A DNA stretch of 44,860 bases from Candidatus Omnitrophota bacterium (GTDB taxonomy: Bacteria; Omnitrophota; Gorgyraeia; Zapsychrales; JANLHA01), in contig JAKQKX010000054.1 in NCBI GenBank assembly GCA_029560465.1, positions 1-44,860 of the forward strand, in the 5' to 3' direction. Each line of letters starts with the position of its first letter. The first letter of the stretch is position 1. Positions 3,150-34,233 of the stretch are shown here, one piece after another. The notes beneath the pieces are model-generated. The model did no database searches. It saw nothing but the letters and a program-made list of their open reading frames with translations, and was not told where the DNA came from. Both the position numbers and the translations under genes were made by a program.

Positions 3150-3857
3150 TTACGCCCCCTTTAATATGAGCTCAAAAGATTTTCCCCACAATATATTTTT
3201 TGCACGCCTGGCCTCGTGGACACTCACGTCGGACCGCGCGTGCTCAGCTCTATGGAAAAGATGCGTTTCGTCCGGGGCCGAATTATCAAAAGCCGGGTGG
3301 TAATGTTCAAGCTGTGCATCTTCGCAGAAACAGAACCGGCCAAGACACCGTGCAAATTCTTCAAGCTCCATGTCGCAGAAAAAAGCCCCGTAATCAGGGC
3401 AGAAAACTTTTCTGTCAGGGAACCGGTCAGCAAAGGCAGAACCTAAAAGCCCATAAGCCGCCTTTGCCGGTTGTCCGTCGGTGGCGTTTCTGATCTTAAA
3501 CCCGACAACGCCATCAAAATTAAACTCCTCAATTTTTGGGGCAGAGTTGTTGATTATGTTTTCGTCGAGATAAGTGTCGTCGGAGAGGTATAATAATGCG
3601 TCCGCGCTCATCCCACGAAGATAATCATTCCAGAAAGTTGAAGCCCGGAATCTTCCGGCGTAAAGATGCGTCTGGACAAAAGCACACCGGCCATAAGATG
3701 CGTCAAACTCATCTTTTTCTTGCAGGGATGAAAAGAAAATTTTGACAATAACAGAATAAGATGAGCTTGCTAAAATTACGTCGTGAGCTGACCTTAAGCA
3801 TTTAGCAAGCTTATCTTTTCTATTCCTCGTCGGGATTACAATGTCAATCTTTGTCAT
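3150..3857 (-). CDS. GT2-like glycosyltransferase
   Basis: 235 aa. The N-terminus MTKIDIVIPTRNRKDKLAKC is the typical GT-A nucleotide-sugar binding strand and loop of family 2 transferases. A DDT acidic motif in ALLYLSDDTYLD (near residue 97) fits the metal-binding DxD position. The C-terminal part has His-rich stretches (EHYHPAF; HLFHRAEH). It begins in a TAATG overlap with the stop of the upstream fused transferase, so the two are translationally coupled and probably act on the same glycan. Acceptor and sugar are unknown: host surface polysaccharide, virion protein or exported appendage are all possible. Confidence 0.75.
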   Translation of the reverse strand: MTKIDIVIPTRNRKDKLAKCLRSAHDVILASSSYSVIVKIFFSSLQEKDEFDASYGRCAFVQTHLYAGRFRASTFWNDYLRGMSADALLYLSDDTYLDENIINNSAPKIEEFNFDGVVGFKIRNATDGQPAKAAYGLLGSAFADRFPDRKVFCPDYGAFFCDMELEEFARCLGRFCFCEDAQLEHYHPAFDNSAPDETHLFHRAEHARSDVSVHEARRAKNILWGKSFELILKGA

Positions 3858-5248
3858 TAAGTCCTTAGCGTACGAGACGCTTGATGCTGTTCAATCACCG
3901 GCTCAACGTCCGGATTTTGAAGCCCAATAATATAACAATACTCCGGCCCGAGATCTTCAAATGTGATCTTCCCTTCCTTGCGATATTTATCCAGGACCTC
4001 TTGGAAAAACGGCTGCTCCCCAAAGGTCCGGCGCTCTCCGCCTTTTAACAGCTTCTCGACGTCTGCGAGGAAAGCGCGGGTGATGTCGTTATTTTTAAAA
4101 AACATCACCGAAGAAATAAACTCTGTCCCGTTGCGATAATGACCCGCCATATCTGCCGAGCAAGTTAAGAGCTTATCCGGCGAGGACACAACAACAGCGT
4201 CGGCGTCAATCCAGACAACATTCCTGCCTGGATATCTATCGAGCATTTTTAAGATAAACTGCGGCTTAAACTTTGTGTTTGCGTCCCAATCCCCGCGGCT
4301 CTTAACCGGCGAGACGTCATAGTCCAAAGAAAGCCGATCTAATGTTAAGCGCAAGTTGTCAGCATATTTTTTATATCCATTCTCCGGCGTGAAATAATTG
4401 ATAAAAATCGGCTCGTCCTCTTTCTTTGTTCTTTCGACCTTCTTTAACTTCGCCGGTTTCTTCGCGGGTTTTTCTTCGACGGGGTTGAGCTCGGCGGGAA
4501 TATCCCCGAACTCAAAAACTTTTAATGCGCTGTTTTTATTGCAGTTGATAATTCTCGCCCCGAACTTCCTGAACTCGTCGGAGTTTTCCTCGTAACATTG
4601 CAAGTGATAATCATGGACATTCTCAGCCGGCTCGCTCGGATATCCATTATGCCATCGAGGCCCAGAGAAGTCATACCCCAAAAGGTATATTTCAGACGCC
4701 CCAAGAAGCAACGCCAGGTTAAGAGCACCAAACCCGGAGTTTGTCCCGCACCCAAGCCCTTCCTCGAGATTCTGTGAAAGTCCTGGGCGGCCAATACTCT
4801 GTGCAATAAAAATGTCCTCAGGGAGCGGGGCCGCGTTTAAATCGCCCCAGATCTTAATCGCTTTTGATGCGTTAAAAAGGTCTCTGTCGTCGGGGCCAGT
4901 CTCGCCCGACTCAATCCACCCCCACAACCTCGGATCCATCCCATAAATGATTTCTGGGTCTAATAACCTAAACGCCAGGTTAATCCCGATTGTATGCTCC
5001 CCCTCTAAAAGCTTCGGGTTAATCTTCCGTACGCTTGACCCGCCCCCGACGATAAAACAACGCTCACCGGCCCACATTCCTTGACGCAAGACCTCGGTTA
5101 TTTTCCGGCGGTTCTGAATCATCTGCTCTTTCAATTTCCGCGTCCCAGGATCATGTATTTGACTCATGGTGATAACTTTGTTCTTCTTCGGCGGCTCTGG
5201 TTGCCTGTTTGTGAGTCCCGGTAATTTTGACATTGAAATAAAGCCCAT
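3857..5248 (-). CDS. Two-domain DUF115-like plus glycosyltransferase protein
   Basis: I place the start at ATG 5248 (GGAGG six bases upstream), giving 463 aa; a longer frame to 5368 would overlap the capsid gene. N-terminal domain (about 64-250): CFIVGGGSSVRK, HTIGINLAFRLLDPEIIYGM and GFGALNLALLLGASEIYLLG match the DUF115/MAF-like Rossmann fold found in motility accessory factors and many phages. A Lys/Pro/Glu-rich linker (about 256-278) leads to a C-terminal glycosyltransferase domain (about 280-463) with NVVWIDADAVVVSSPDKL, where DAD is the probable DxD motif. It sits directly downstream of the major capsid gene, so it would be made late. It probably transfers sugar to a surface or structural component (inference). 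Confidence 0.75.
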   Translation of the reverse strand: MGFISMSKLPGLTNRQPEPPKKNKVITMSQIHDPGTRKLKEQMIQNRRKITEVLRQGMWAGERCFIVGGGSSVRKINPKLLEGEHTIGINLAFRLLDPEIIYGMDPRLWGWIESGETGPDDRDLFNASKAIKIWGDLNAAPLPEDIFIAQSIGRPGLSQNLEEGLGCGTNSGFGALNLALLLGASEIYLLGYDFSGPRWHNGYPSEPAENVHDYHLQCYEENSDEFRKFGARIINCNKNSALKVFEFGDIPAELNPVEEKPAKKPAKLKKVERTKKEDEPIFINYFTPENGYKKYADNLRLTLDRLSLDYDVSPVKSRGDWDANTKFKPQFILKMLDRYPGRNVVWIDADAVVVSSPDKLLTCSADMAGHYRNGTEFISSVMFFKNNDITRAFLADVEKLLKGGERRTFGEQPFFQEVLDKYRKEGKITFEDLGPEYCYIIGLQNPDVEPVIEQHQASRTLRT

Positions 5249-5272
5249 CATTTCCCTCCGGGTTAGACTCGC

Positions 5273-5294
5273 CGGGGAGAGTTGCCCCTCCCCG
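5273..5294. terminator. Hairpin between capsid and glycosyltransferase genes
   Basis: CGGGGAG (5273-5279) and CTCCCCG (5288-5294) form a 7-bp stem with an 8-nt loop. On the plus strand it is followed by ACGGAATTTTC and a run of T. On the minus strand, the coding direction here, there is no T run. It may act as an mRNA stability or attenuation element downstream of the capsid gene, or as a terminator for antisense transcription. Confidence 0.4.
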
Positions 5295-5327
5295 ACGGAA
5301 TTTTCTTTTTTTTGTGTTATGCTCGTG

Positions 5328-6293
5328 TTATGCGATTGAACATTTCTCAACCTGGTCCGTGTCGCCAATAGCCGCGCCGTATCTCATCCATCCGGCGACG
5401 GTATCAGCATAAAGCAACGGGTCAAAAAGGTTGTAAAGCGTTAAATCCATTCTGTTCCCGCCCTTGATCTTTTTCTTCGGCAGACAAACATAATAATAGC
5501 TGTTTGACGAGAGCATCAGAGAAAAGATCGGCCGGACAGTAAAAACAATGCTTCGGCTCGACCCGGCGAACGCCTGGTTGAGTTGAGTCATTGCTTTATT
5601 AACTCTCGACATCAATGCCAGCGGAGCAAGCAGTATCAATTCTGTGTTCGCATTGACGCCATATCCCTTGTCCTTAACGGCGGTCAAAATCGCGAGCGCT
5701 GCGGCGTTGATCGTCTTGATGTCGCGATTGACTTCTGTGTCCGTCGAGGTCCCTTGCCAAGTTGTCGTATTCGTCACGGCCTCAATCAAGGCATAATGCG
5801 CCGCGGCACGTTGAGAATACGCCTTATTTCTAAACTCAATCGCGGTGTCCTCGATTTGCCAATATTGGCGGTCGTCAAACCAGGTCCGGTCCCAATTTAA
5901 CCCGCCGCCGTATCTGTCAAACTCGACAGAAACAACGCTCCCGCTTGCTTTGTAAACCTTGATCTTATCCCCGACGGGAATTTTCGAGAACGTCAACCCT
6001 GACGTCACGTCGAGAATTTTAAACCCGGGTTCGGTCCCGCCCGTAAAATCCCGAATGTCAAAAATCTGCTCATATCCGGTGTCCCAATCCGGCGTCGCAT
6101 GATACTTCTCAAGGACAGCAATAATGTTGTCCGGGAAGTCACCTTTCGTCGTGAATTGCTGCATGGCGAGCTTGAACTCTTTGTTGCGTTCTGGGACACG
6201 CATAAAATGCTGAAAGGCCCCACTCAGCTTTTTGATATGATCGGGGTTTTGGAAATTAACCTTCGACCAATCTCTGATAATTTTACCCTTCAT
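5328..6293 (-). CDS. Major capsid protein
   Basis: 321 aa, start ATG 6293 after GAGGTGGAATAG. Position (after terminase, portal, protease and decoration genes) and content identify the HK97-fold shell protein. It has an N-terminal helical segment (ERNKEFKLAMQQF), a central region rich in E-loop and P-domain-like strands (GDKIKVYKASGSVVSVEFDR), a long central helix (EDTAIEFRNKAYSQRAAAHY) and the C-terminal A-domain ending MRYGAAIGDTDQVEKC. That ending resembles the usual capsid C-terminus in Mu/HK97-like phages. Function is assigned from family pattern and synteny; there is no signal or cleavage motif visible. Confidence 0.85.
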   Translation of the reverse strand: MKGKIIRDWSKVNFQNPDHIKKLSGAFQHFMRVPERNKEFKLAMQQFTTKGDFPDNIIAVLEKYHATPDWDTGYEQIFDIRDFTGGTEPGFKILDVTSGLTFSKIPVGDKIKVYKASGSVVSVEFDRYGGGLNWDRTWFDDRQYWQIEDTAIEFRNKAYSQRAAAHYALIEAVTNTTTWQGTSTDTEVNRDIKTINAAALAILTAVKDKGYGVNANTELILLAPLALMSRVNKAMTQLNQAFAGSSRSIVFTVRPIFSLMLSSNSYYYVCLPKKKIKGGNRMDLTLYNLFDPLLYADTVAGWMRYGAAIGDTDQVEKCSIA

Positions 6294-11886: not shown

Positions 11887-12372
11887 TTAATAATTTAAAC
11901 CAACTATTTTAAGAAATTCTTGTTTCTGCGCCAAGGCGGCCCTGGCGTCCAAGGCGTCCCTGGCGGCGGCGGAGGCGGCGTCCAAGGCGTCCCTGGCGGC
12001 GGCGGAGGCGGCGTCCAAGGCGGCCCTGGCGGCGGCCCAGGAGGCCGAGGAGGCGGCCAAGGCGGCGTCCAAGGCGGCGGATCGAATGCTTTCATTTCTC
12101 GTCGTTAAATATTCCTCGACGATAGGGGGCATATCCCACAGGTGCTTGACGCTTAGTGCGCACCAGCAGGCAAACTCACGCCATTCTTTTTCATATTGAG
12201 GTTCTGCTCTGCAACACCATATAGCATCAAGCAGCCCATTAGACTCTACGATCACCGCATAAGGCAATGGCTCATCATCGGCTTTCGTCTTGCCGAGATG
12301 ATTAAGGAGTTTTTCCCATCCATCTTTACAGGGCGAATGAGATTTTATCCTATTAAGCGTTGTTGTTATCAT
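11887..12372 (-). CDS. Paralogous protein A with Ala-rich repeat tail
   Basis: About 161 aa, starting at ATG 12372 by alignment with its paralogue at 23026 (MITTTLN versus MLKTTLN); a TTG start at 12432 is possible. The core KADDEPLPYAVIVES...WCCRA...WREFACWCALSVKHLWDM is shared with the paralogue, and 94 bp are identical. The C-terminal third is an alanine-rich helix of 11-residue units (ALDAASAAARD) encoded by 33-bp tandem repeats, absent from the paralogue. Similar Ala-rich repeat tails occur in proteins with putative immunity-like domains; this is only a resemblance. Function unknown. Confidence 0.65.
   Translation of the reverse strand: MITTTLNRIKSHSPCKDGWEKLLNHLGKTKADDEPLPYAVIVESNGLLDAIWCCRAEPQYEKEWREFACWCALSVKHLWDMPPIVEEYLTTRNESIRSAALDAALAASSASWAAARAALDAASAAARDALDAASAAARDALDARAALAQKQEFLKIVGLNY
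11935..12078 (-). repeat. 33-bp tandem repeat, GC-rich, coding for Ala-rich helix
   Basis: The unit is about 33 bp (GCGTCCAAGGCGTCCCTGG followed by CGGCGGCGGAGGCG), present as two nearly perfect copies plus degenerate ones. It encodes ALDAASAAARD. It is far more GC-rich than its neighbours, which makes copy-number change by slippage likely. Confidence 0.75.
12091..12184. repeat. Left arm of a 94-bp perfect inverted repeat
   Basis: Its reverse complement is identical base for base to 23229-23322. It encodes the WREFACWCALSVKHLWDM to YLTTRNE core in both paralogues. Identity ends sharply on both sides. Confidence 0.9.
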
Positions 12373-12463
12373 TTTTTCCCAACTTTCTTTTATAACCCCC
12401 CGGCCCCGCGGGTGCGGGCAAGGAGCGACCAACTCGCCGGGGAGGATAGGTCAGTTGTCAATC

Positions 12464-15853: not shown

Positions 15854-15910
15854 TGATTTTATCCTTTCTGTTTTTATGGTTGGCATCATGGCTTGAATTT
15901 AGGGGTTTTT

Positions 15911-16267
15911 CTAGCCTGGCAGCTCTGCCATTAAACGATCTTTCTTTGGCCGCCCCCTTTTGCGGCCAGGGACTTTATTCTGTGCCACGGGCTTATTTTC
16001 GCGGGTTTCTGCTGTCTTGACATTCCGTTTAAGCCCGTAGATTTCTGCATGTCTTTTTTCTTTGTGTTTTTTTGACAGACGGTCGCACATGGCATAGGGC
16101 GAGAAAAAATAGACCGGGCACTCACCTCCGGCGATGCAATCAACCGCCGGTGAGAAATCGCTGCACATATAACATAGGGCATAGATTGCTTTTTTTCTCG
16201 TGAGTTTTACCCCTGCTTTATAGAGCGCGTATTCTTTCCGCCCCTTGAATTTTGACCTAACCCTCAT
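15911..16267 (-). CDS. Cys-rich protein with C-terminal AT-hook (118 aa)
   Basis: Cys residues in AIYALCYMCSDFSPAVDC and GGECPVYFFSPYAMC (C32, C35, C44, C50) follow the C-x2-C...C-x5-C-P-x-Y pattern common in small phage zinc proteins. The C-terminus PGRKRGRPKKDR contains the AT-hook core RGRP, which binds the minor groove of AT-rich DNA. The start overlaps the stop of the repeat protein upstream by 4 bases (ATGA), so it is coupled. A DNA-binding accessory in replication or recombination is likely; partners unknown. Confidence 0.65.
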   Translation of the reverse strand: MRVRSKFKGRKEYALYKAGVKLTRKKAIYALCYMCSDFSPAVDCIAGGECPVYFFSPYAMCDRLSKKHKEKRHAEIYGLKRNVKTAETRENKPVAQNKVPGRKRGRPKKDRLMAELPG

Positions 16268-16566
16268 TCTTCCCCCTCCTGGATTTCAATATAATCCGCA
16301 TGAATATTGACATATCGCAGTGCGTCCCCATTCTGCTCGACGGCGGCGAGACATATCTGTCCCGTCTGATCTTTGACATATCGCAGTGCGCACCCATTCT
16401 GCCCGACGGCGGCGAGACATATCTGTTCCGTCTGATCTTTGACATATTGCAGGGCGTACCAAGTCTGCTTGACGGCGGCGAGACATTGTTTTTTGTCATA
16501 CCACTTTTTAAACTTTTCGCCATCAATCATAAATATTTTATTGCTACTTTTAAATGTAATCTTCAT
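16264..16566 (-). CDS. DUF4116-like tandem-repeat protein (100 aa)
   Basis: After a short N-terminus (MKITFKSSNKIFMIDGEKFK) come three 22-residue repeats of the form QICLAAVxQNGxALRYVKDQ. They resemble the helical repeats of DUF4116-type proteins, which probably form a small alpha solenoid for protein binding. Both ends overlap neighbours by 4 bases, placing it in a tight operon between the ATPase and the AT-hook protein. Confidence 0.7.
   Translation of the reverse strand: MKITFKSSNKIFMIDGEKFKKWYDKKQCLAAVKQTWYALQYVKDQTEQICLAAVGQNGCALRYVKDQTGQICLAAVEQNGDALRYVNIHADYIEIQEGEE
16308..16505 (-). repeat. 66-bp tandem repeat (three copies)
   Basis: Units begin at TGACATAT(C/T)GCAG: 16308, 16374 and 16440, exactly 66 bp apart, with most differences at single bases. 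They encode the 22-residue DUF4116-like units. No spacer diversity, so this is not a CRISPR array. Confidence 0.85.
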
Positions 16567-17900
16567 TCTTCCCCCTCCTCATCTCTTGGTTGGTCTGCCT
16601 TTTTAACCTCTACCCCGTCGACAGAAATAATCTCCCCGTTCTCGATAAAGATCCCGATCTGCCCGGATTCGTCGACTTTCTCGACCCAAATTTCATACCC
16701 CTCACTTTCAGCGAGGGAACAGATTGCGCGGAAGTTATCACTATCCAACAACGACCCGTCGCGGATAACGAGGACCTTAATGTCGGGACTTAACGCCATT
16801 GCCATTTTTGTAAAGATGATAATTTTCTGCCCGTCGCTTGCGACGTCAATCGGCTTGCCGTTATAGAACACCTCATCTTCTGTTAAGCTTAACCCCTCGA
16901 CGGGGAATGTGCATTGAGCGACGCGGGTTTGTTTGTCTTGCTCAATGCGTTCGAGTTTTTGAGTAAGTTTTTCGCTCTCGTCCTTGTATTTTTCGGCTTC
17001 TTTTACCGCCCGGCGGTATCTGATTGCGTGCCGGATTTTTGCGTTTGTTTCCTCGAGCGTCTCGATTTCTTTTTCTGCGTCGAGAATCTGGCTGGCGCTG
17101 ATCTCGTCCGGGAAAACGATTGCCTCTATTTTAGTTTTAATGTCGTCGATCTCTTGCGTTTCCATCACAATCTTTTTCTTAATCTCTTCAATTTCCTTCT
17201 CCATCAGCTCCCGGTTTTTGTTCTTTGCTTCAACAAGATCAATGAGCCGCCTCTTCCCATCAGAAACTTTCTCGAAAATTGCGCGTTTCTCCCGGAGGCG
17301 GTTAAGGTTGTTTAGCTTCTCCTTAAAAGTTATTTCTTCGTCGGGCGTTTCTGGGGCGGGGGCCGTCATCTCTTTTAGCTGAGCGATTGCGGCACGGATC
17401 CTGTCGTTAACCTTTTTCCGCTCTTCTCTGACTAACGATTCTTCTTCTTTCAGGTCCGCGAAATCGAGACCGACAAGCTTAGAAAGTGTTTCGTGAAATT
17501 TTTTCTTATCGTCATTTAACATCAAGAGGAGTTTCATCGGGTCAACCATTTTCCCGGTGAGTTCGTTGAGGAATGTTTGTGGGGAAGAGAAGGACCTTTT
17601 ATTCCCGTCGGGGAGGATTTCAAAGACTTCTAACGCCTCACCTTTCGGCGTCCATCTTTTGCGGATTTTTATACTTCCGAGGTCGAGCGTCGCGACGGCT
17701 TTTTCTTCCCCGGAGAGGATTGGCATTTTTAATTTCAGGCCCTCAAGCAACGCCTGGATGATATCCAGGATGTTTGATTTTCCGGCCCCGTTTTTCCCTG
17801 TCAAAACAACAACCTTTTTGTCGGGAGTTATTCTGACTGCCCGGAGGTTGAGCACGTTCCGGGCCGTTAATTCGACAATCGTCAGCGGTTTTTTGTCCAT
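16563..17900 (-). CDS. RecF/SMC-like AAA ATPase
   Basis: 445 aa. Walker A GKNGAGKSN lies at residues 35-43 after a RecF-like N-terminus (TIVELTARNVLNLRAVRITP). Long coiled-coil arms span about 195-340 (LREKRAIFEKVSDGKRRLID; MEKEIEEIKKKIVMETQEID; EAEKYKDESEKLTQKLERIE). The C-terminal lobe has a signature-like VASDGQK and a Walker B-like KVLVIRDGSLLDSDNF. It probably acts in recombination or repair with the nucleases upstream, or in DNA end handling. A full head-arm-head layout in 445 residues is typical for phage versions. Confidence 0.8.
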   Translation of the reverse strand: MDKKPLTIVELTARNVLNLRAVRITPDKKVVVLTGKNGAGKSNILDIIQALLEGLKLKMPILSGEEKAVATLDLGSIKIRKRWTPKGEALEVFEILPDGNKRSFSSPQTFLNELTGKMVDPMKLLLMLNDDKKKFHETLSKLVGLDFADLKEEESLVREERKKVNDRIRAAIAQLKEMTAPAPETPDEEITFKEKLNNLNRLREKRAIFEKVSDGKRRLIDLVEAKNKNRELMEKEIEEIKKKIVMETQEIDDIKTKIEAIVFPDEISASQILDAEKEIETLEETNAKIRHAIRYRRAVKEAEKYKDESEKLTQKLERIEQDKQTRVAQCTFPVEGLSLTEDEVFYNGKPIDVASDGQKIIIFTKMAMALSPDIKVLVIRDGSLLDSDNFRAICSLAESEGYEIWVEKVDESGQIGIFIENGEIISVDGVEVKKADQPRDEEGEE

Positions 17901-18966: not shown

Positions 18967-19962
18967 TTATTGATTCTTTTTCCCTTGTGGTTTATCCGGG
19001 GCGGTATGTGTCGCCGGGTCCCCGGCAGAAAGATCGTTTATCTCGTCGGCAGAAATCCCGACATTATTTTCATCCTCAACAATCTCTCCGTCCTGGACCC
19101 GCGTTTCTAAGACTTTCGCCCAGGTCGTTTCCCCGTCTTTGATCGCGTTGTAGACTTGCTGTAAATCCGCGATGTCATCCTGGCGCGCTTGCATTGGGGG
19201 CTTTTGTAAATATTTTTCAACGTCCGACGGGGTTATCCCGAGTTTTGCAAAAGAGTCCAACACTTTCCGCAAGAACGCCATCGGGTCACTTGCAATTTTT
19301 GTCCTTGCTGTCTCTTCGCATTTTATCCTTGCCTCGTCGAGAATATGAGACGGAATGAGCCGCAAAGAGTTGTTCCTGATTGCTTTTGATACGTTGGCCC
19401 CCTGCTTAACTTTTACCTCATCTTCCGTCGCCACGACGATTGAGATTTTTTCGCCGTAAGAATTTAATCTCTCGCCGAGGACCTCTCGTCCTACGGCGCT
19501 TTTTCTTTCGACAGTCTTTTCAATAATGATATCCTCGCTGTAAGGGATGTTCGCCTCGAGGTCATAGCAGATCACCCTTACAATCCGCACGCGCGCAGAA
19601 TCAAAAATAATGTTCTGAATTACTTTAATGTTTCGCCAATTTCTAATCATCTCCTCGGCGAACCTGATCGACAAACCACGGATGGTGTCCTTCCCGATAG
19701 GTTTTTTGTAGATTGATTTCTCCGCGAAAACAGGGTTTCCACAGGCCCGCAAAATCCCGACCCGCGCGTCCTCCTCATTGCGTTTATTTAGTTGTGCCAG
19801 GGCAAACCCCGCCTTGACTTCTGCTTCTGTCTGCGCCGCGACCATCTCCGACGCAGTTGACCCCGTTTGAGAAATCGACCTGCTTCCGAGGTCCTCTTTA
19901 ATCGTCATTGAGTTTTGCTGCGGTTGTAAGGCCTTTGATGATGTCGTCTTTTGTTCTTCCAT
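18967..19962 (-). CDS. Phage protein of the recombination module, putative ssDNA-annealing protein
   Basis: 331 aa, ATG 19962 after AGGAGGGGTGG, overlapping the previous nuclease by 65 bases. The stretches LRACGNPVFAEKSIYKKPIG, GLSIRFAEEMIRNWRNIKVI, NNSLRLIPSHILDEARIKC and DSFAKLGITPSDVEKYLQK match a widespread phage family I know from siphophage recombination regions but whose activity is not proven to me. Flanked by two PD-(D/E)XK nucleases, the obvious hypothesis is a single-strand annealing (RecT/Erf/Sak-like) role. The C-terminal about 60 residues are acidic and low-complexity, as in annealing or SSB proteins. Confidence 0.6.
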   Translation of the reverse strand: MEEQKTTSSKALQPQQNSMTIKEDLGSRSISQTGSTASEMVAAQTEAEVKAGFALAQLNKRNEEDARVGILRACGNPVFAEKSIYKKPIGKDTIRGLSIRFAEEMIRNWRNIKVIQNIIFDSARVRIVRVICYDLEANIPYSEDIIIEKTVERKSAVGREVLGERLNSYGEKISIVVATEDEVKVKQGANVSKAIRNNSLRLIPSHILDEARIKCEETARTKIASDPMAFLRKVLDSFAKLGITPSDVEKYLQKPPMQARQDDIADLQQVYNAIKDGETTWAKVLETRVQDGEIVEDENNVGISADEINDLSAGDPATHTAPDKPQGKKNQ

Positions 19963-20878
19963 CTTTCCACCCCTCCTGTTTAACTTTTTTAGGTTTTTTA
20001 TTTAACGGCCTGTCCTTATTTACATACGGGCATCTACCCGACGCGAAAAATCCGCAAAATTCCGGTGTGCAGAGGTAATCCGACGGGCTTGCCGGCGTAA
20101 ACATCCCGGCGCGGATGATCTTGCACGCCTGGTTAAACCGGCGAAACGCGACAACAAAATCTTTTATTTCACGACGGGAATAATGCGACACACAATAAGC
20201 CGCCCTCGTTTTTGTCGGTTTTATAATGCTATCTTGAGCAACAAAATCCGGGACTTTTTTCTTGCCGGACTCGAGCCATTTATAAAGAGCATAAAAAGTG
20301 TATTGCTCCGAGCAATCAACCTCCTGTTGCCCGAGGTTGGTTTTCCTGGTCTTTGTGTCGCGGATCCCTTCGCCGATTATAGTCTCGCCAGGGCAGGTTT
20401 CTTTATCTGGTGTTTTCTTATCCTCGTCGACATCAATCTGCCCGGCGAAATCATAATCATATCCCTGTGCTTCAATAACAAACTTTTTCTCGACGGATAT
20501 CGGCTGAATATTCGGGGCCACGTCATAATGATATGCTTTTGAGCAATCAATCGTCTGGTCCATTGCAGCGCCTTTTGCTCTTTTCATGCCGAGGAATTTC
20601 TCTTCTTCGTTTAGGACGACAGGTGAGTTATCCCAGGCGGCGAGGAAACTGTCGCGGGCGACATCCTCAACGATTGATTTGTCCAATAATGACCCTTTAT
20701 CTATTTTGTTCTGGAGGTTCTTTGCATTTGCGGCGTGAGTCCCTGTGCCGATAATAAGAGGTGTTGTTTGAGGTTCCCTCTCACCGTTTAACACGACGAG
20801 AGAAAACTTATATCCGCACCGATATAATAAAGCAAGATGCGATTGGTGCAGCTGCGGTTTATTTGTTTTTTTGTCCAC
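19898..20878 (-). CDS. Cas4-like PD-(D/E)XK nuclease (second)
   Basis: 326 aa, apparent GTG start at 20878. Core: YDYDFAGQIDVDEDKK (motif Asp), GEGIRDTKTRKTNLGQ (D-x-K) and DCSEQYTFYALYKWLE (Q-x3-Y). A Cys near residue 21 (LYRCGYK) with C-terminal CTPEFCGFFASGRCPY would complete an Fe-S cluster. It is larger than the nuclease at 17935 and shares only motifs with it. It probably degrades or processes double-stranded ends for the annealing protein encoded directly after. Confidence 0.75.
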   Translation of the reverse strand: MDKKTNKPQLHQSHLALLYRCGYKFSLVVLNGEREPQTTPLIIGTGTHAANAKNLQNKIDKGSLLDKSIVEDVARDSFLAAWDNSPVVLNEEEKFLGMKRAKGAAMDQTIDCSKAYHYDVAPNIQPISVEKKFVIEAQGYDYDFAGQIDVDEDKKTPDKETCPGETIIGEGIRDTKTRKTNLGQQEVDCSEQYTFYALYKWLESGKKKVPDFVAQDSIIKPTKTRAAYCVSHYSRREIKDFVVAFRRFNQACKIIRAGMFTPASPSDYLCTPEFCGFFASGRCPYVNKDRPLNKKPKKVKQEGWKDGRTKDDIIKGLTTAAKLNDD

Positions 20879-20890
20879 GGCTCACGACTA

Positions 20891-21613
20891 TTATTTAAGA
20901 TTGTCGACGTGATTTCTCGCGCGGCGTCCTGTTTGTTTGTACCAAAGAGAATCGCGCATCTGTTCTGCGGCGGCGGGATAATCCAGGGACTTAATCGCTT
21001 CCCGGAGTTTTATAAATTTAAACAATCTCTGCCGCCCGAGGTTATAAGCCATATCAATAATGATGTCTTGCCTGGCAACCCCAATTTTTCCCCATGTGTC
21101 CGCCCCGACAAAATCTATCGCGTCTTTTTCTGCGTTGGAATAGATCACATCAAAGACGACATCCGCCTCCTGCCTTGAAATTGATCTTTTCCCGAAAACA
21201 ATTTCTCCGTCGAGCAATGATCTTATAAAACTATCGTCGAGATTGAATCCATATCCTACTGTTTTATGCCCGGAAGGGCAGGAATAAATCTTTGCCCGGA
21301 ACCCTTCAAATTCTTTTGTCATTTTCTTTCCGGCCTCTGACGCATACGCGCAAAAAGATGACGATAAAATCAAAGAAAAGATGAAGATTATCTTATATGC
21401 CACCGGCTTAAAAAACAACCGGAGCGGCTTGCCAAAAATCAAGTGCATCTCGGCGAGAGTATTGGCGTCCGGCGTCGTTGACTCCCGCTCCCAATTATAG
21501 ACAGTCCTGCCGGTGCATTTACAGCCCCGAGACGTGAGCCGCTGCGCAAGATATTTTCTTGACATCCCAATTTCTTCCCGGAATTTCTTAATATTTTTAC
21601 CGAGTATTTTCAT
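20891..21613 (-). CDS. XRE HTH - membrane segment - GH24 lysozyme fusion
   Basis: 240 aa in one frame. Residues 1-62: XRE/Cro HTH (KKFREEIGMSRKYLAQRLTS, GRTVYNWERESTTPDANTL). Residues 72-92: hydrophobic segment (AYKIIFIFSLILSSSFCAYA) that can be a signal peptide, SAR or anchor. Residues 97-240: GH24 muramidase with the E-8aa-C-5aa-T catalytic arrangement, E103, C112, T118, in KEFEGFRAKIYSCPSGHKTV, then GYGFN and the C-terminal WYKQTGRRARNH. Cys in place of Asp is normal for many GH24 endolysins and keeps activity in T4 lysozyme. N-in topology would leave the HTH in the cytoplasm and lysozyme in the periplasm. It is in the early operon, not the lysis cassette, and overlaps the previous gene (21597). 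Confidence 0.85.
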   Translation of the reverse strand: MKILGKNIKKFREEIGMSRKYLAQRLTSRGCKCTGRTVYNWERESTTPDANTLAEMHLIFGKPLRLFFKPVAYKIIFIFSLILSSSFCAYASEAGKKMTKEFEGFRAKIYSCPSGHKTVGYGFNLDDSFIRSLLDGEIVFGKRSISRQEADVVFDVIYSNAEKDAIDFVGADTWGKIGVARQDIIIDMAYNLGRQRLFKFIKLREAIKSLDYPAAAEQMRDSLWYKQTGRRARNHVDNLK

Positions 21614-21827
21614 TCTTATCCTCTCTTGTTTTTTTGCCCCGCTTTCTCCTCGCTTGTCCCGTCGCTCTTTCGTCCCTTGATAGACTTATCCGGATTCTCT
21701 TTTTCCCCCGTCGCTGAAAGACCTCAATCTTAACGTCATGCACCAACCCGCAATCACAACACATTAGCGAGAACCCCCGTAATGGGACAACAAAGGATTC
21801 GCCATTAATTAACTCATAATATTCCAT
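21597..21827 (-). CDS. Small zinc-ribbon-like basic protein (76 aa)
   Basis: The N-terminal half has SLMCCDCGLVHDVKIEVF, a C-x2-C-x3-H type metal site. The C-terminal half is strongly basic (RISLSRDERATGQARRKRGK). Good ribosome site (GGTGGTGAAAA). It is probably a nucleic acid-binding early protein. It overlaps the HTH-lysozyme gene start by 17 bases, so both are expressed together. Confidence 0.6.
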   Translation of the reverse strand: MEYYELINGESFVVPLRGFSLMCCDCGLVHDVKIEVFQRRGKKRIRISLSRDERATGQARRKRGKKTREDKNENTR

Positions 21828-21830
21828 TTT

Positions 21831-21962
21831 TCACCACCCGCCCCGCGATTTATCCTCTTCGCGTTCTTCATCCTCACCCTCGCGGATATCGTCAAACATG
21901 TCCGCAATCGTGTTCCCGCTTGAGTTTTTCCTTAATATGTTTTCCCGGTCTTTATGGTCCAT
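21831..21962 (-). CDS. Small acidic early protein (43 aa)
   Basis: First leftward early gene. I choose ATG 21962 (after GGGGGTGGAT) since the frame upstream would run through the promoter; ATG 21974 is the alternative. The peptide (MDHKDRENILRKNSSGNTIA, then DDIREGEDEEREEDK) is very acidic at its end. Function unknown. Confidence 0.5.
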   Translation of the reverse strand: MDHKDRENILRKNSSGNTIADMFDDIREGEDEEREEDKSRGGW

Positions 21963-21984: not shown

Positions 21985-22013
21985 ACTCTACCAGATTCCC
22001 GGGAAGAAGTCAA
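21985..22013 (-). promoter_or_regulatory. Leftward early promoter (TTGACT-17-TAGAGT)
   Basis: Minus strand: -35 TTGACT (22008-22013), 17-base spacer, -10 TAGAGT (21985-21990). The spacer holds the 10-bp palindrome TTCCCGGGAA (21996-22005), a candidate operator. It would drive the whole leftward early operon from 21.96 kb. Confidence 0.6.
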
Positions 22014-22036
22014 GAAAAAAAATTCCGCTTCTTGAC
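22009..22036. promoter_or_regulatory. Dyad between divergent promoters
   Basis: GTCAAGAA (22009-22016) and TTCTTGAC (22029-22036) are exact inverted copies, each covering one -35 element. A dimeric HTH protein binding here would affect both promoters. Part of the symmetry is inherent in two facing TTGAC elements. Confidence 0.5.
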
Positions 22037-22060
22037 AAAAAATTTCATTTGTGGTATTCT
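22032..22060 (+). promoter_or_regulatory. Rightward promoter (TTGACA-17-TATTCT)
   Basis: TTGACA (22032-22037), 17-base spacer, TATTCT (22055-22060), followed by AGGAGGGG and the ATG at 22091. It drives the plus-strand operon starting with a glycosyltransferase. Confidence 0.75.
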
Positions 22061-22090: not shown

Positions 22091-22852
22091 ATGGTTGAAT
22101 GTCCGCTATATGTTACCCGCACAAGAGCAGAGGTCAAATATCCCAAGAGGCCCACGACGACACTTTTAATGTTCACACTTAACGAGATTGACGGAATGAA
22201 AAAGTTGTGGCCGAGCATAAATTTTTTAGTGCCCGGGTGGATTGACCAGATTTTAGTTGTCGACGGGGGGTCAACGGACGGGACGATTGAGTTTATGACG
22301 GAGCACGCCATCCCGTTCTTTATTCAAGAGAAGCCGGGGACCGGCGCGGCCTTTTTTGAATCGTTCAAAAAAGTCACCTCCGACATTTTAATCGTTTTCT
22401 CGCCGGACGGAAATTCAGACGTTTCACGCATCCCGGAGTTAATAAAATTTATGACGGAAGGGTTTGGTCGTTTCTCTGATATCGTAATTGTGTCAAGATA
22501 TCTGGAGTGGGCGAAAAGCTACGACGACGATCTTGTGACTAAATTCGGCAACTGGATGTTCACGGGCCTTTTTAACTTTTTATTCGGGGCAGAAATATCC
22601 GATCTGCTTGTTATGTATCGCGGATATTGGATGCAATCGCTAAAGTTATTGGATTTGTCGACGGGAAGCGACGCCTGGGGAACGCATATTTTGGCGAGAG
22701 CTATCGGATCGGGGATGCACATTTCCGAGATCCCTGGCAACGAACCGAAAAGAATCGGCGGCGTGCGTAAAATGCGCCCAATCAAAAACGGGATTCAAGA
22801 GCTGAAAATGGTCTTAAAGGAATGGCGATGGTTAAATTCATCATGGCAATAA
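22091..22852 (+). CDS. GT2 glycosyltransferase, DPM1-like type
   Basis: 253 aa. LLMFTLNEIDGMKKLWPSIN, then QILVVDGGSTDGTIEF are the classic family 2 strand and VVDGGSTDGT motif. KPGTGAAFFESFKKVTSDIL, then FSPDGNSD supply the second acidic (DxD-like) site. The C-terminal part is soluble with no membrane anchor, unlike most polyprenyl-phosphate transferases. First gene of the rightward operon, close to a strong promoter, so made early. Probably modifies host envelope glycans or supplies sugar for later virion or surface modification. Confidence 0.8.
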   Translation: MVECPLYVTRTRAEVKYPKRPTTTLLMFTLNEIDGMKKLWPSINFLVPGWIDQILVVDGGSTDGTIEFMTEHAIPFFIQEKPGTGAAFFESFKKVTSDILIVFSPDGNSDVSRIPELIKFMTEGFGRFSDIVIVSRYLEWAKSYDDDLVTKFGNWMFTGLFNFLFGAEISDLLVMYRGYWMQSLKLLDLSTGSDAWGTHILARAIGSGMHISEIPGNEPKRIGGVRKMRPIKNGIQELKMVLKEWRWLNSSWQ

Positions 22853-23025: not shown

Positions 23026-23544
23026 ATGTTAAAAACAACGCTTAATAATCTTGATAATTCTATGTTTGAGTTCCCGGGTTTTTGGCATCCGGAGAGAGAA
23101 AAACTGCTCGCAGCGCTAAAGAAAACAAGAGCTGACGACGAGCCGGTTCCTTATTCATTTATCGTCGAGACTTGTGGGTTGCCTGCGGCGGTTTATTGTT
23201 GCCGGGCAGCGACAAAATATTATCATGTATGGCGTGAGTTTGCCTGCTGGTGCGCACTAAGCGTCAAGCACCTGTGGGATATGCCCCCTATCGTCGAGGA
23301 ATATTTAACGACGAGAAATGAAGAAATAGCAGAAAAAGCATGGGAGTTAACAAGAGCGATCAACCCGCGGCCCTATAGCGGAAATCTCGCATGTTTGGCT
23401 GCGCTTTATGCCGCAAACTTCCCAGAGTATTTAGAGAAACATTTGGCAGCTGCTCTTGTCGCAGATTACGCCTTGCGGTTTGCGCTCTTGGCAGGAGCAG
23501 ACATTAACCCGCTGACAAAAAAGTTTTTAGAATTGGTTGGATAA
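23026..23544 (+). CDS. Paralogous protein B (172 aa)
   Basis: Start after GGGTGAGTTGAT. Paralogue of the gene at 11887: KTRADDEPVPYSFIVETCGL, YCCRAATKYYHVWREFACWC, ALSVKHLWDMPPIVEEYLTT. The C-terminal half differs (ARAINPRPY-like region with NLACLAALYAANFPEYLEKH) and lacks the Ala-rich repeat of paralogue A. Helical throughout. The shared core suggests a binding domain with swapped tails. Function unknown. Confidence 0.65.
   Translation: MLKTTLNNLDNSMFEFPGFWHPEREKLLAALKKTRADDEPVPYSFIVETCGLPAAVYCCRAATKYYHVWREFACWCALSVKHLWDMPPIVEEYLTTRNEEIAEKAWELTRAINPRPYSGNLACLAALYAANFPEYLEKHLAAALVADYALRFALLAGADINPLTKKFLELVG
23229..23322. repeat. Right arm of the 94-bp perfect inverted repeat
   Basis: Exact reverse complement of 12091-12184. 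Both copies are in frame and code for the same peptide in paralogues A and B. Confidence 0.9.
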
Positions 23545-25797: not shown

Positions 25798-25935
25798 ATG
25801 GACCTATTTGAATTTTTATTTACTATTTTTGTTCTAATTCCGACAGGTATTATCTTATGGAAGATCGCTATTATGAAAACACCAGAAGTAATGGAATTGT
25901 TTACTAAAAAGAGGGGCAAAAAATGCAGAGAATAA
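25798..25935 (+). CDS. Small membrane protein (45 aa)
   Basis: ATG 25798 after AGGAGGTGAGTT. MDLFEFLFTIFVLIPTGIIL, then WKIAIMKTPEVMELFTKKRG: one N-terminal transmembrane helix and a basic tail. Overlaps the following glycosyltransferase gene by 13 bases. It might anchor or assist the next two transferases; unproven. Confidence 0.6.
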   Translation: MDLFEFLFTIFVLIPTGIILWKIAIMKTPEVMELFTKKRGKKCRE

Positions 25936-26738
25936 ATAATCCAAGAATTAATGTGCCTGTCGAGATCAGCTTAATTGCATCATCAATCAGGTTTTGGCTG
26001 TGGGCGCCGTTTATAAATTCCCTGCTTGATAACGACGTGACTTTTGAAGTTATTCTCGTCGGAGATTTTGAAGAGAAAGCTGTTGAGGTCCACAAGGCGA
26101 TATCTGCAAGAATGAAAGACACGCAAGTTTTTAAGATCATCCGCACGGGGCATATTAAACCGGCACAATGTTATGAAATCGCGCGTCGGGCCGCTGTTGG
26201 CCGGTTAATACATTGGACAGCGGACGATTGCGAATATTCGCCAAAGGCCCTTGATAACATTTGCAAGTTTTATGATATGTTTATCAGCCGGGGGTGTGTA
26301 TCACAAGACCTGATTCTTTCAATCCAGACAATCGAGAGCGGGTATTTTTTCAAGATGGACGACCACAGATTTTTCTATAAAGACCAATCTTCTCCGTTGA
26401 TGGCCCCGCTCGGTGTATTGCGCCGGGAATATCTTGATTCTCTCGGCGGATTTGACAGGCGGTTTGTTTCCGGGCAGTGGGAGAATGATGTTGTTATGCG
26501 CTCTTATGCCGCCGGGGGGACAGTTGCCGTTTATTCCGGGGCCGTTATCACAATAGACCACCATGAAAAGCACCTCGGGAATCTTGGGAGCAAATTTAGG
26601 TCGGCATACTTAGAGGACAGGGGGGTCTTAGAAAGTTTATGGCCCGGGGGGAAGATAAAGAAAGAGGTGGATCTTGAGCCATATTCGGATGAATCAATTT
26701 TAACAAAGTCACAGGGGAACAGGGGGATTTGGGTATGA
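25923..26738 (+). CDS. GT2-family glycosyltransferase
   Basis: 271 aa. VEISLIASSIRFWLWAPFIN, then FEVILVGDF follow the GT-A nucleotide-binding region. LIHWTADDCEYSPKALD carries the DDC-type acidic motif. GGFDRRFVSGQWENDVVMRS is the family 2 acceptor/base region (G-G-F-D...E-N-D). No membrane helix. Ends in an ATGA overlap with the next transferase, so the two are coupled. Confidence 0.75.
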   Translation: MQRINNPRINVPVEISLIASSIRFWLWAPFINSLLDNDVTFEVILVGDFEEKAVEVHKAISARMKDTQVFKIIRTGHIKPAQCYEIARRAAVGRLIHWTADDCEYSPKALDNICKFYDMFISRGCVSQDLILSIQTIESGYFFKMDDHRFFYKDQSSPLMAPLGVLRREYLDSLGGFDRRFVSGQWENDVVMRSYAAGGTVAVYSGAVITIDHHEKHLGNLGSKFRSAYLEDRGVLESLWPGGKIKKEVDLEPYSDESILTKSQGNRGIWV

Positions 26739-27481
26739 TTGACATTTCAATTTTTTTGCCGTTTCGTGAGAGGTTAGATTTTTTTGCCAAGTTAATGGAC
26801 TCACTCAAAAAAACAACCACTAACCCCGAGAGAGTTGAGCTTGTGATTGCCATTGACAATGACGACACGCCGGTCATTAATCAGATCGGGAACCTCGTCG
26901 AGAATAACCTGCCTTTTGATTTAAGGTTTTTATTGCGCCAACGAGGGGAACACATGATAAAAACGTATATCAACCCGGCGGCGAGGATATGCAGGGGTCG
27001 GTTTCTTTTGGCGTCGAGCGACGACGCTGTTTTTAAGACTGTCGGATGGGACAGGATTTTATATCAAAAGATGGACGACGCATTTTTAAGAGACGGCGAC
27101 GACATCCACCTGGGGTTAATTAACGACGGGATAAATAGGACGGACGAGGACCCGCTATTCCCGCGCTTTTCTTGTTGGCCTGTCTTGGGGCGAGAAATGC
27201 TCCTGGCTAAAGGGAATTATATTTACCATGAGCATTTTAACTTCTGGGGCCTCGATTGGTTCTTGGCTGATGTTTTCCGACGGATGAAACGGCTTGTATC
27301 AATAACGGATGTCTTGATTGACCATTATTCCGTGCATACAGGACAACGGGCCAGGGACGAAAATTATGAACGGTTTGCTAAAGTCAAAACCATATACGAC
27401 GACGCTTTAGTCACAGAAGAATCGCAACGGCTTATTGACCTTATTTTTGAGATCAGGAGGCAGAAAGGAATAAATACATAA
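26735..27481 (+). CDS. GT2-like glycosyltransferase
   Basis: 248 aa from ATG 26735 (overlapping the upstream stop). IDISIFLPFRERLDFFAKLM, then LVIAIDNDDTPVI, and GRFLLASSDDAVFKTVGWD with the DD motif. NFWGLDWFLADVFRRMKRLV resembles the catalytic-base region. Its last 29 bases overlap convergently with the membrane protein gene on the other strand. Confidence 0.75.
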   Translation: MIDISIFLPFRERLDFFAKLMDSLKKTTTNPERVELVIAIDNDDTPVINQIGNLVENNLPFDLRFLLRQRGEHMIKTYINPAARICRGRFLLASSDDAVFKTVGWDRILYQKMDDAFLRDGDDIHLGLINDGINRTDEDPLFPRFSCWPVLGREMLLAKGNYIYHEHFNFWGLDWFLADVFRRMKRLVSITDVLIDHYSVHTGQRARDENYERFAKVKTIYDDALVTEESQRLIDLIFEIRRQKGINT

Positions 27482-27938: not shown

Positions 27939-28082
27939 TTAGAGCGCTCTGATGATTTCATAAAGAGTCCCGCCGACGAGATCGTTGATGATTTTCAAAA
28001 TTTCTTTGATCTGGGCGATATTGACCTGTTTTTTCTTGCCTTCTTTTTCTGAAATTTTAACAGCAAATTCTGTGATTTTCAT
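27939..28082 (-). CDS. Small conserved-looking cytoplasmic protein (47 aa)
   Basis: ATG 28082 to TAA 27939-27941: MKITEFAVKISEKEGKKKQV, then NIAQIKEILKIINDLVGGTL ending YEIIRAL. Amphipathic helical. Its start overlaps the end of the lipoprotein (28079) by 4 bases. Function unknown; co-translated with the lysis genes. Confidence 0.55.
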   Translation of the reverse strand: MKITEFAVKISEKEGKKKQVNIAQIKEILKIINDLVGGTLYEIIRAL

Positions 28083-28294
28083 TGTAGGTTAACCCCTTTT
28101 ATTTTAGCGTTCAGGATCCTGTCAACAGCCCGGTCACTCAATAGAAACCCGTCAAATTCCGTCGTGATAGTTTCCCCTTTTTTTGTCCTGACGATTTCTT
28201 TTTGATCGAGAACGTATGTCGTCGTTCTTGTACTGCTAACGCACCCGGTCAAAAGCATCAATAAAATCAGAAGCGTCACCTGTTTTTTTAGCAT
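28079..28294 (-). CDS. Outer-membrane lipoprotein, putative o-spanin (Rz1-like)
   Basis: 71 aa. Signal peptide MLKKQVTLLILLMLLTGC with lipobox LLTGC at C18, followed by a short periplasmic part. It starts inside the 3' end of the inner-membrane gene (59-bp overlap, different frame), as Rz1 does with Rz. The two together would bridge the envelope and fuse the membranes after holin/lysozyme action. Less Pro-rich than classical Rz1, so this rests on position and lipobox. Confidence 0.7.
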   Translation of the reverse strand: MLKKQVTLLILLMLLTGCVSSTRTTTYVLDQKEIVRTKKGETITTEFDGFLLSDRAVDRILNAKIKGVNLQ

Positions 28295-28418
28295 TGTCTA
28301 AATCCTCTTTTGCTTTCTCTGCCTGTTCCCGACGATAAGCGCTTTTCTTGTCGTGATATTTAAAGATGCCAAGCATAACAAGAAGAAGCGCCCCGATTAC
28401 TGCGAGGATTTCTTTCAT
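28236..28418 (-). CDS. Putative i-spanin (Rz-like), short
   Basis: 60 aa: N-terminal transmembrane helix (KEILAVIGALLLVMLGIF) followed by a charged coiled coil (KYHDKKSAYRREQAEKAKED LDNAKKTG). That is the plan of an inner-membrane spanin subunit, although shorter than lambda Rz. Overlaps holin (ATGA) upstream and the lipoprotein gene downstream. Confidence 0.65.
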   Translation of the reverse strand: MKEILAVIGALLLVMLGIFKYHDKKSAYRREQAEKAKEDLDNAKKTGDASDFIDAFDRVR

Positions 28419-33100: not shown

Positions 33101-33824
33101 CGACGTTAATAGGATGCGGGGAATGTAACTCTTCAAACCCGCTTATAATTTCCTGATCGTTTGTCCCGAGTCTTGTTTCAACGGTAACGTCCGAATAATT
33201 CTCTATCGGGTTCCCGTCAATCATAATGTTTGAGATAGACCTGATCGGGCCTTCACATACTCCAATTAAAATATTGAGGTATTGATTTAACCCGTCGGCA
33301 GATACGAACTGATTGAGGATATTCCCGCCGGTGCGATGCCGCCCATATATTTTTTTAACTGGGATCCCGACCTCTTGGACCGTCTGAATCTGGTCCCATC
33401 CATAAGTAGGGGAACTCTCGTCGAGCCCTAGCCCGTCGAGCCCATAGCTCTTTTTTCTTGCCATTGAAATCGCCTGATATATCGAGTACCCAGAGGAGAG
33501 CGCCATCCCTGCGGTCATAATCGGGTGGAGTTTTGCGAACTTTACTGCAGCTGTCGCGGCTTTTACTAAAAGCATTAACCCTTTCCAAATAACAGCCCCG
33601 ATAGCATCTTCGATTTTTGGAGTAATGATTATTTCAGATTTCTCGTTGACTAACGTTTCGAGGTTGTCAACAACTCCACCGTCGAGGACAATATCAATAT
33701 CTTTGTCAAGGAACCCGGAGTCCTTTATATACTCGCCGACAGTCTTCCCCCTGGAGTATTCAAACGTTTTTGTCTGATGCTCCCGGTCAAATCTTATTGG
33801 ATAATATTTCAGTGTAACCGGCAT
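30162..33824 (-). CDS. Central tail-tip protein (gpJ-like)
   Basis: About 1220 aa. Start chosen at ATG 33824 (MPVTLKYYPI, AGGT upstream); ATG 33872 would overlap the NlpC gene by 86 bases. Regions in order: ubiquitin-like N-terminus; hydrophobic helix (AVKFAKLHPIMTAGMALSSG); J-like body (IPVKKIYGRHRTGGNILNQF; GVCEGPIRSISNIMIDGNPI); fibronectin-like modules in the second half (PSDVNTFIVNQDLILLRFGW; EIRTGLSFNNGDHVAFVQGN); and a C-terminal beta-rich end (YFRFEDKDTTGFTVKLYDAD). It forms the tail hub and probably attaches the fibre. Host range would be determined here. Confidence 0.8.
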   Translation of the reverse strand: MPVTLKYYPIRFDREHQTKTFEYSRGKTVGEYIKDSGFLDKDIDIVLDGGVVDNLETLVNEKSEIIITPKIEDAIGAVIWKGLMLLVKAATAAVKFAKLHPIMTAGMALSSGYSIYQAISMARKKSYGLDGLGLDESSPTYGWDQIQTVQEVGIPVKKIYGRHRTGGNILNQFVSADGLNQYLNILIGVCEGPIRSISNIMIDGNPIENYSDVTVETRLGTNDQEIISGFEELHSPHPINVELPMDDPYSYTTEGLEVDGFSIYVTLPNGLYRIDPNTGASLAWWASYVVEYKLHSAEEWTTVTPDVKVTTLSRSAVRHVYNKRGLTPGQYDIRVTKNSIDSSDYYVCDVFLATIDEIVSEDLIYPNTALFAIKLLATNQISDATPNITFVVEDATVSMPDVLDEEDGDPVDWEAYYYDPDAEVFRLFEDDSALYWDGESYRTGFCANPIWCQLDAMKNKRYGMGKFLPDERINESQMLQCALYCEEKVNDGEGNFEKRFRCDIVVDSSTKACDFMTQISAIYQGFVFYSSNGFSVSIDRPGQAVQSFGMGNIVKDSFSQTWKSRTEIYNVIEIEYRDKDLDYANETVTIEDGESLAAGDPRNIKRARLFITKKSYALRQGRYALWLSKYINRGSSFKTALAGIRCQPGDLINVSHDVPQWGYSGKVLPGSTSSAVLLDRDVLLEPATQYALLIQHLDGTSEERTVISADGIRNLIEVRPAFSSTPADYEDYAFGKINIVTKPFRLLGIKREKRGEVSLNTLEYNSSVYDDTAVAIPTPNYSHLSRVVPNVEDLAVTERLVKMKDGSIEAGIDVWFTKPLPQPGINVISAYGKAKIYLSDDDGESWQYQGETSNDHFQIVGGIVDLHPYKICVVSVSTNGAENQISSSPQMAITPFGKSAPPSDVNTFIVNQDLILLRFGWIHVDDLDLWGYEIRTGLSFNNGDHVAFVQGNTYMSSDLRLGEEQRFWIKAIDTSGNYSLNAKMAVVTVDNIPFRNLIAEFAEEPDWTGDKDDTEVDVNDYLIISDGEVSGTYETPTRDLGFLASFSFLAHIYIVIVGDIAFNSDPERKFNSSTTLRFLGEEETAGNYGLEISTSEDDITWTDYSPYQKGDYYCRYFKFRVTLTRSGVDMALACTKFNYWADLPDINDRGDDEVVSANDGIEVLFNANFHQEPNVHIEILTGDGIYFRFEDKDTTGFTVKLYDADGVAVVGTFEWHAYGV

Positions 33825-34233
33825 ATTTATACCTGTAAAACCCTTCAACTTTTTCTTTCCATCCGTCGTCATTAATTCTGCTAATAACGACGCCGGAAGA
33901 TTTTAAACAATGAATGAACTCCCACCGATTAATGACAATCCCGACATGCCTTGTGGCCCCATCAACATCCCGGAAGAACACCAAATCAAACGGACGCTTA
34001 TTCTCTCGACGGAGCTTTTTCCAGTTATAATGATAATGTTCACGGAATAAATCTTTCCCTTTTTCCCGGGCCCCTGGGACGTATGCCCCTTTAAGATCAA
34101 ATAATTTTATTCCCCAAATTTCGCGGAAAGCCAGGATAACAAGCCCGAGGCAATCAACACCGTTTCTGTCCCGCCCATCTTTGAGGAATGGGATGCCTAC
34201 ATAGCCGAACAATTTGTCTCTTTCAGATGACAT
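33787..34233 (-). CDS. Tail-tip NlpC/P60 cysteine peptidase
   Basis: 148 aa. Catalytic Cys in NGVDCLGLVILAF (about C28), His in TRHVGIVINRW, and a third polar residue likely in the following strand (FIHCL). Such proteins sit in the tail tip of siphophages and degrade peptidoglycan during DNA entry (gpK-like). Gene order gpL-like, NlpC, J-like is the lambda order. Confidence 0.75.
   Translation of the reverse strand: MSSERDKLFGYVGIPFLKDGRDRNGVDCLGLVILAFREIWGIKLFDLKGAYVPGAREKGKDLFREHYHYNWKKLRRENKRPFDLVFFRDVDGATRHVGIVINRWEFIHCLKSSGVVISRINDDGWKEKVEGFYRYKYAGYTEILSNKI

Follow-up and report, generated by a model that had tools for sequence, protein, structure and literature searches.

Within the 44,860-nucleotide stretch of DNA analyzed here (the window, contig C79 of a genome bin of 103 contigs), a single uninterrupted reverse-strand frame of 240 amino acids, running from ATG 21613 to the stop codon at 20891-20893, encodes an XRE-type helix-turn-helix (HTH) domain, a hydrophobic segment and a GH24 lysozyme. 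This fusion is confirmed in the assembled sequence: the open frame, the Pfam and PHROG matches and the structural models all agree with the domain order proposed in an earlier note on this DNA. The gene probably encodes a T4-type endolysin that is exported through Sec and carries an XRE domain at its N-terminus; the fusion is probably accidental or recent. Taken in full, this reading describes a phage endolysin, a GH24 muramidase exported by Sec, whose signal would be cut after A91 and which carries the HTH ahead of that signal; we hold it with about even confidence. If the gene is real and wholly translated, its product would be a lysis enzyme with a regulator-like domain preceding the export signal. 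The features discussed below are listed in Table 1.

Table 1. Coordinates of the fusion gene, its parts and the associated features in the window.
Feature	Coordinates	Strand	Basis
Gene for the 240-aa fusion of XRE HTH, predicted signal peptide and GH24 lysozyme	20891..21613	-	open frame; Pfam and PHROG matches for both parts
XRE-type HTH domain, residues 1-68	21410..21613	-	HTH_3 E 4.3e-5; four-helix model; structural matches
T6 run, codons 67-68, at which a slip or a single-base error would break the frame in two	21410..21415	-	codon listing; stops follow shortly in frames 1 and 2
Probable signal peptide for Sec export, residues 71-91 (VAYKIIFIFSLILSSSFCAYA), predicted cleavage ahead of S92	21341..21403	-	hydrophobicity profile; helix 70-88; fold boundary at 93
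GH24 (T4-type) muramidase domain, residues 92-240; E103, C112, T118	20894..21340	-	PF00959; closest PDB entries in sequence and in fold
GAGAGG ribosome site ahead of ATG 21613	21620..21625	-	duplex energy -7.4 kcal/mol
Leftward promoter-like site TTGACT-17-TAGAGT	21985..22013	-	spacer contains TTCCCGGGAA
Divergent rightward promoter-like site TTGACA-17-TATTCT	22032..22060	+	sequence
First small ORF of leftward operon, 43 aa from ATG 21962	21831..21962	-	read from sequence
Operon gene preceding the fusion, 76 aa, CDCGLVH motif	21597..21827	-	relatives in L180 and EBPR podovirus 1
Next operon gene, exonuclease-like	19898..20878	-	phrog_1218 E 6e-7; begins 13 bases past fusion stop
Putative small holin, 60 aa	28415..28597	-	position and hydrophobicity only; conserved in L053; no Pfam match
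Putative i-spanin, 60 aa, N-terminal TM	28236..28418	-	position and sequence; conserved in L053
Putative o-spanin lipoprotein, overlapping i-spanin	28079..28294	-	phrog_1275 Rz-like spanin E 0.0014; conserved in L053

Both parts of the protein were recognized by homology. It matched an endolysin family (phrog_7, 3e-15) and a regulator family (phrog_8, 1e-8) in PHROG, and the source genome at one place only, the window locus itself. The HTH_3 family covered residues 8-66 with 23.9 bits, a narrow margin over the Pfam cut-off of 23. Because the HTH rows were misaligned and HTH confidence was poor in the full-length AlphaFold model, this domain was modeled apart, from an HTH alignment, yielding the four helices of an XRE-type domain (3-15, 19-28, 35-42 and 50-60; domain 1-60). 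Among the best structural neighbors of this model were the XRE DNA-binding domains of P22 c2, SinR and DdrO, at E-values of 0.02-0.2; none fell below 0.001, as weak values are expected for a 78-residue chain. Together, the Pfam score and the model uphold the XRE HTH that the earlier note had placed at residues 1-62. The Pfam matches of the fusion protein included no RodZ-type HTH family, and a RodZ-like identity was dropped for this reason. In Clostridia, XRE proteins that resemble the fusion HTH (L018-L020) have a hydrophobic tail at the C-terminus that probably spans the membrane.

The C-terminal part is a complete predicted muramidase domain, as had been claimed. Phage_lysozyme (PF00959) matched residues 100-231 (E 2.2e-10, 41.4 bits against a cut-off of 22.3), and the full-length model contains a helix at 70-88 followed by a T4-lysozyme fold from residue 93, with a pLDDT of about 95-98 over the lysozyme (about 97 for the domain). 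The GH24 motif is Glu(X)8(Asp/Cys)(X)5Thr (PMC8228626), and the triad E103-x8-C112-x5-T118 has precisely this spacing. T4 lysozyme and the lysozyme domain of T4 gp5 were the best PDB matches in both sequence and fold (7cn7, 6xc0, 1k28 and T4 lysozyme), although identity is about 20-26%, T4 lysozyme has neither an HTH nor an export signal, and the fusion has Cys in place of Asp20. Searching the source genome with the fusion protein (P0001) and with PF00959 gave one match each, the fusion gene in both cases, so that the statement that no other lysozyme exists in the window stands for GH24 genome-wide. No second endolysin was found among the scanned window ORFs, and the match of the NlpC/P60 protein at 33787-34233 is to a tail family. 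We do not favor the lysozyme as a tail or virion enzyme, as its gene sits among early-type genes and carries a predicted export signal.

The segment between the two domains bears directly on how the enzyme would work. Residues 69-92 read KPVAYK-IIFIFSLILSSSF-CAYA|S, which by a rule-based reading comprises n-, h- and c-regions preceding the catalytic domain; the hydrophobic core is 13 residues long, with a 13-residue Kyte-Doolittle mean of up to 2.4. In signal-peptide (SP) endolysins, n, h and c regions with a strong h-region are found, whereas SAR domains are weakly hydrophobic and have no c-region (PMC7692668). Given the strong h-region and the AYA|S c-region, residues 71-91 are probably a cleavable Sec signal peptide and not a SAR domain, where both the AxA site and the signal-peptide call were read from sequence by rule. 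The SAR-like helix that had been assigned to residues 72-92 is thus better described as a segment at 71-91 with a signal-peptidase site after A91. The predicted cut directly precedes the first lysozyme helix (93-103 in the model), and since the lysozyme fold starts just after A91, cleavage would leave a complete lysozyme. In SP endolysins the signal lies at the protein N-terminus; in the open frame it begins near residue 71, and it would be N-terminal only with a start at GTG 21403, which has no ribosome site.

The fusion protein has cysteines at 31, 33, 88 and 112, and a disulfide between C88 and C112 had been proposed to cage the enzyme. C88, near the segment end, would be lost on the predicted cut, leaving C112 as the sole cysteine and making P1-type disulfide caging unlikely in the mature enzyme. 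Cysteine at the catalytic Asp position also occurs with no membrane segment in front in nine relatives (L003, L006-L010, L154, L163 and L165), in most of which it is the only cysteine up to that point, and T4 lysozyme D20C is cited in PMC8228626 as staying active; for these reasons, Cys at this position is no sign of caging. SAR or disulfide caging was accordingly discarded as the leading model, on both the segment type and the cysteines of relatives that have no membrane segment.

We then considered where translation would begin, using the duplex energy of the upstream sequence with the 16S tail. The site ahead of ATG 21613 has an unremarkable energy of -7.4 kcal/mol, the median over 43 window genes being -8.5 kcal/mol, and with no good ribosome site further in, translation would begin there. 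GTG 21403 (codon 71) is a poor start (-3.2 kcal/mol), and ATG 21322 (codon 98) a moderate one (-5.8 kcal/mol). An internal start is the basis of one alternative, which we regard as quite unlikely: the fused frame is real, the working lysozyme begins either at GTG 21403 or at ATG 21322 (in the second case as a canonical endolysin that lacks a signal and depends on the holin for release), and the form with the HTH is a minor or separate product. The moderate energy of ATG 21322 suits this alternative, and secondary translation products are known for endolysin genes, as for CTP1L (PMC4777826). However, starting at M98 would halve helix 93-103, and E103 would then be preceded by only five residues, a shorter stretch than the relatives examined have; GTG 21403 lacks a ribosome site.

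The frame itself could also be an artifact of a single base. Lengthening the T6 run to T7 would bring the HTH frame to a TAA right after FF, a natural end for an XRE domain, and would give the lysozyme a textbook 21-residue signal peptide (MAYKIIFIFSLILSSSFCAYA) from the GTG start. By this account, a one-base error or rare variant at T6 conceals two genes, a small XRE gene ending in LRLFF-stop and an overlapping lysozyme gene beginning at GTG 21403. It is a serious rival, and in its favor no fused relative appears in any collection that we searched. We nonetheless consider it unlikely, as the GTG has no ribosome site (though overlapping genes can be coupled) and a T6 run is rather short to cause homopolymer errors in most short-read assemblies. 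The gene is tightly packed with both neighbors, the preceding gene overlapping the fusion start by 17 bases, which argues against a chimeric joint within it. Should a one-base error prove to be the cause, the case would be a warning on reading fusions from single assemblies.

The earlier note had asked for the same architecture in other phages, and our searches returned no second case. No HTH+GH24 fusion turned up in IMG/VR, whether the query was the whole protein, either of its two domains alone or a GH24 profile built from nine sequences; GTDB contigs and plasmids contained none either, relatives being lysozyme-only or HTH-only. Among phages, none of 682 records covered 80% of the query, and the genomes examined at the order (81), phylum (384) and class (384) level likewise gave no fused protein. 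In 20 related virus records, all GH24 genes detected were of the L004/L005 type, and no HTH-endolysin fusion was described in the papers searched. The close relative phage in IMG/VR 3300003154 covers 3.2-15.0 kb (L023) and 25.8-43.4 kb (L053) of the window, and offers no independent copy of the junction. With no second example, there is no sign that the fusion is maintained by selection. A real frame would make this an unusual kind of Sec-exported GH24 endolysin, so far a single case.

The genomic surroundings match their earlier description, the fusion being the third gene of an operon that runs leftward from divergent promoter-like sites (Table 1). Downstream of it lie the exonuclease-like gene, a phrog_3657 gene, an HTH protein gene and others; in L017, which shares downstream early genes, no lysozyme precedes the homologue of the exonuclease-like gene. 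The spacer of the leftward promoter-like site contains one perfect palindrome, TTCCCGGGAA (21996-22005), whose count in the window does not clearly exceed the chance expectation. The operator search found no series of sites for the HTH.

These observations bear on the proposal that the lysozyme is tethered to the membrane and bound to DNA, coupling gene control to the envelope state, or that it is a SAR-type enzyme caged through C88-C112. Regulators of the ToxR/CadC type have an N-terminal HTH-class domain, one membrane segment and a C-terminal periplasmic domain. RodZ likewise joins an HTH-class N-terminus, one membrane segment and a periplasmic C-terminal domain (PMC3599482, PMC6946637), so the order in the fusion is topologically ordinary, and two cysteines are in principle available. 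Unlike in RodZ and ToxR/CadC, however, the periplasmic part of the fusion is an enzyme, the membrane segment looks cleavable, and the HTH matches HTH_3. The segment has the features of a signal peptide and not of SAR, relatives that have no membrane segment commonly carry Cys in place of the catalytic Asp, and no operator series for the HTH was found; we therefore judge this proposal very unlikely. Its bitopic form, in which HTH and muramidase stay joined so that phage transcription follows the state of the envelope or of export, or the lysozyme is held back by DNA binding until late in infection, appears to us more improbable still.

Our preferred reading, the Sec-exported endolysin, gains from the arrangement of the lysis genes. 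As had been pointed out, the lysozyme lies far from the holin and spanins: the putative cassette is 7 kb away and contains no endolysin, either in the window or in L053, an IMG/VR relative that is 87-88% identical over most of the window from 25.8 to 42.0 kb and carries the same cassette. The fusion enzyme is thus probably the phage's ordinary lysis enzyme. (At 15890-16627 on its reverse strand, L053 has an extra DNA methyltransferase-like gene, which is absent from the matching window site, 27456/27464.) In the proposed mechanism, the HTH would stay in the cytoplasm while the C-terminal part is exported and released by signal peptidase as a mature periplasmic lysozyme of 149 residues. Lysis would then be timed by the holin and spanins at 28 kb through depolarization and disruption of the membranes, by analogy with Sec-exported endolysins such as Lys44. 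Lys44 of fOg44 is the prototype of the SP endolysins, and its holin sets the timing (PMC6116005). Besides the lack of a second example and the T6 run, two features count against this explanation: a folded domain of 70 residues ahead of a signal peptide is unusual, and an operon beside an early-type promoter region is an odd site for an endolysin.

The simplest view of the HTH is that it was captured from an XRE gene, most likely a small one that lost its stop, and now does little or nothing; lysis can probably proceed without it. DNA binding, possibly in autoregulation, may nevertheless persist, or the domain may slow export and so delay the enzyme. If the fusion is real and wholly translated, the domain could act as a new lysis-timing device by delaying export, or could regulate from the membrane.

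Among known systems, the fusion protein shares with SP endolysins (Lys44 of fOg44 and that of Campylobacter Fletchervirus) a predicted Sec signal with a strong h-region and c-region before the catalytic domain (PMC6116005, PMC7692668), but differs in the 70 residues with an XRE HTH before the signal and in being a T4-type GH24 enzyme, the Fletchervirus one being a transglycosylase. SAR endolysins such as P1 Lyz and phage 21 R are likewise GH24 enzymes with a hydrophobic export segment, and P1 Lyz also has the E-C-T triad (PMC8228626); in the fusion, by contrast, the segment is strongly hydrophobic with a predicted cleavage site, the caging cysteine would be lost with it, and an HTH stands in front. 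SpmX, a localization factor of the lysozyme family, carries a GH24-related domain on a membrane-bound protein, and its NCBIfam model gave a weak match to residues 92-126 (E 0.013), far below the cut-off. In SpmX the lysozyme domain comes first, unlike in the fusion.

Several further features of the window were recorded. Rfam gave no match, no integrase was seen among the proteins scanned, and the window (1-44860) has no end repeats; the gene order, with all late genes also leftward, would suit a phage genome that is permuted or close to complete. The proteins encoded at 11887-12432 (-) and 23026-23544 (+) are paralogous over about 100 shared N-terminal residues (REFACWCALSVKHLWDMPPIVEEYLTTRNE...), the former ending in Ala/Asp-rich repeats (AALDAASAAARDALDA), and a small ORF at 16264-16566 (-) contains three near-identical repeats of ~22 residues (CLAAVEQNGCALRYVKDQTGQI type). 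Several glycosyltransferase-like genes lie on both strands (3150-5368, 22091-22852 and 25923-27481), many for a 45-kb phage, and two of them match PHROG glycosyltransferase/GtrB families.
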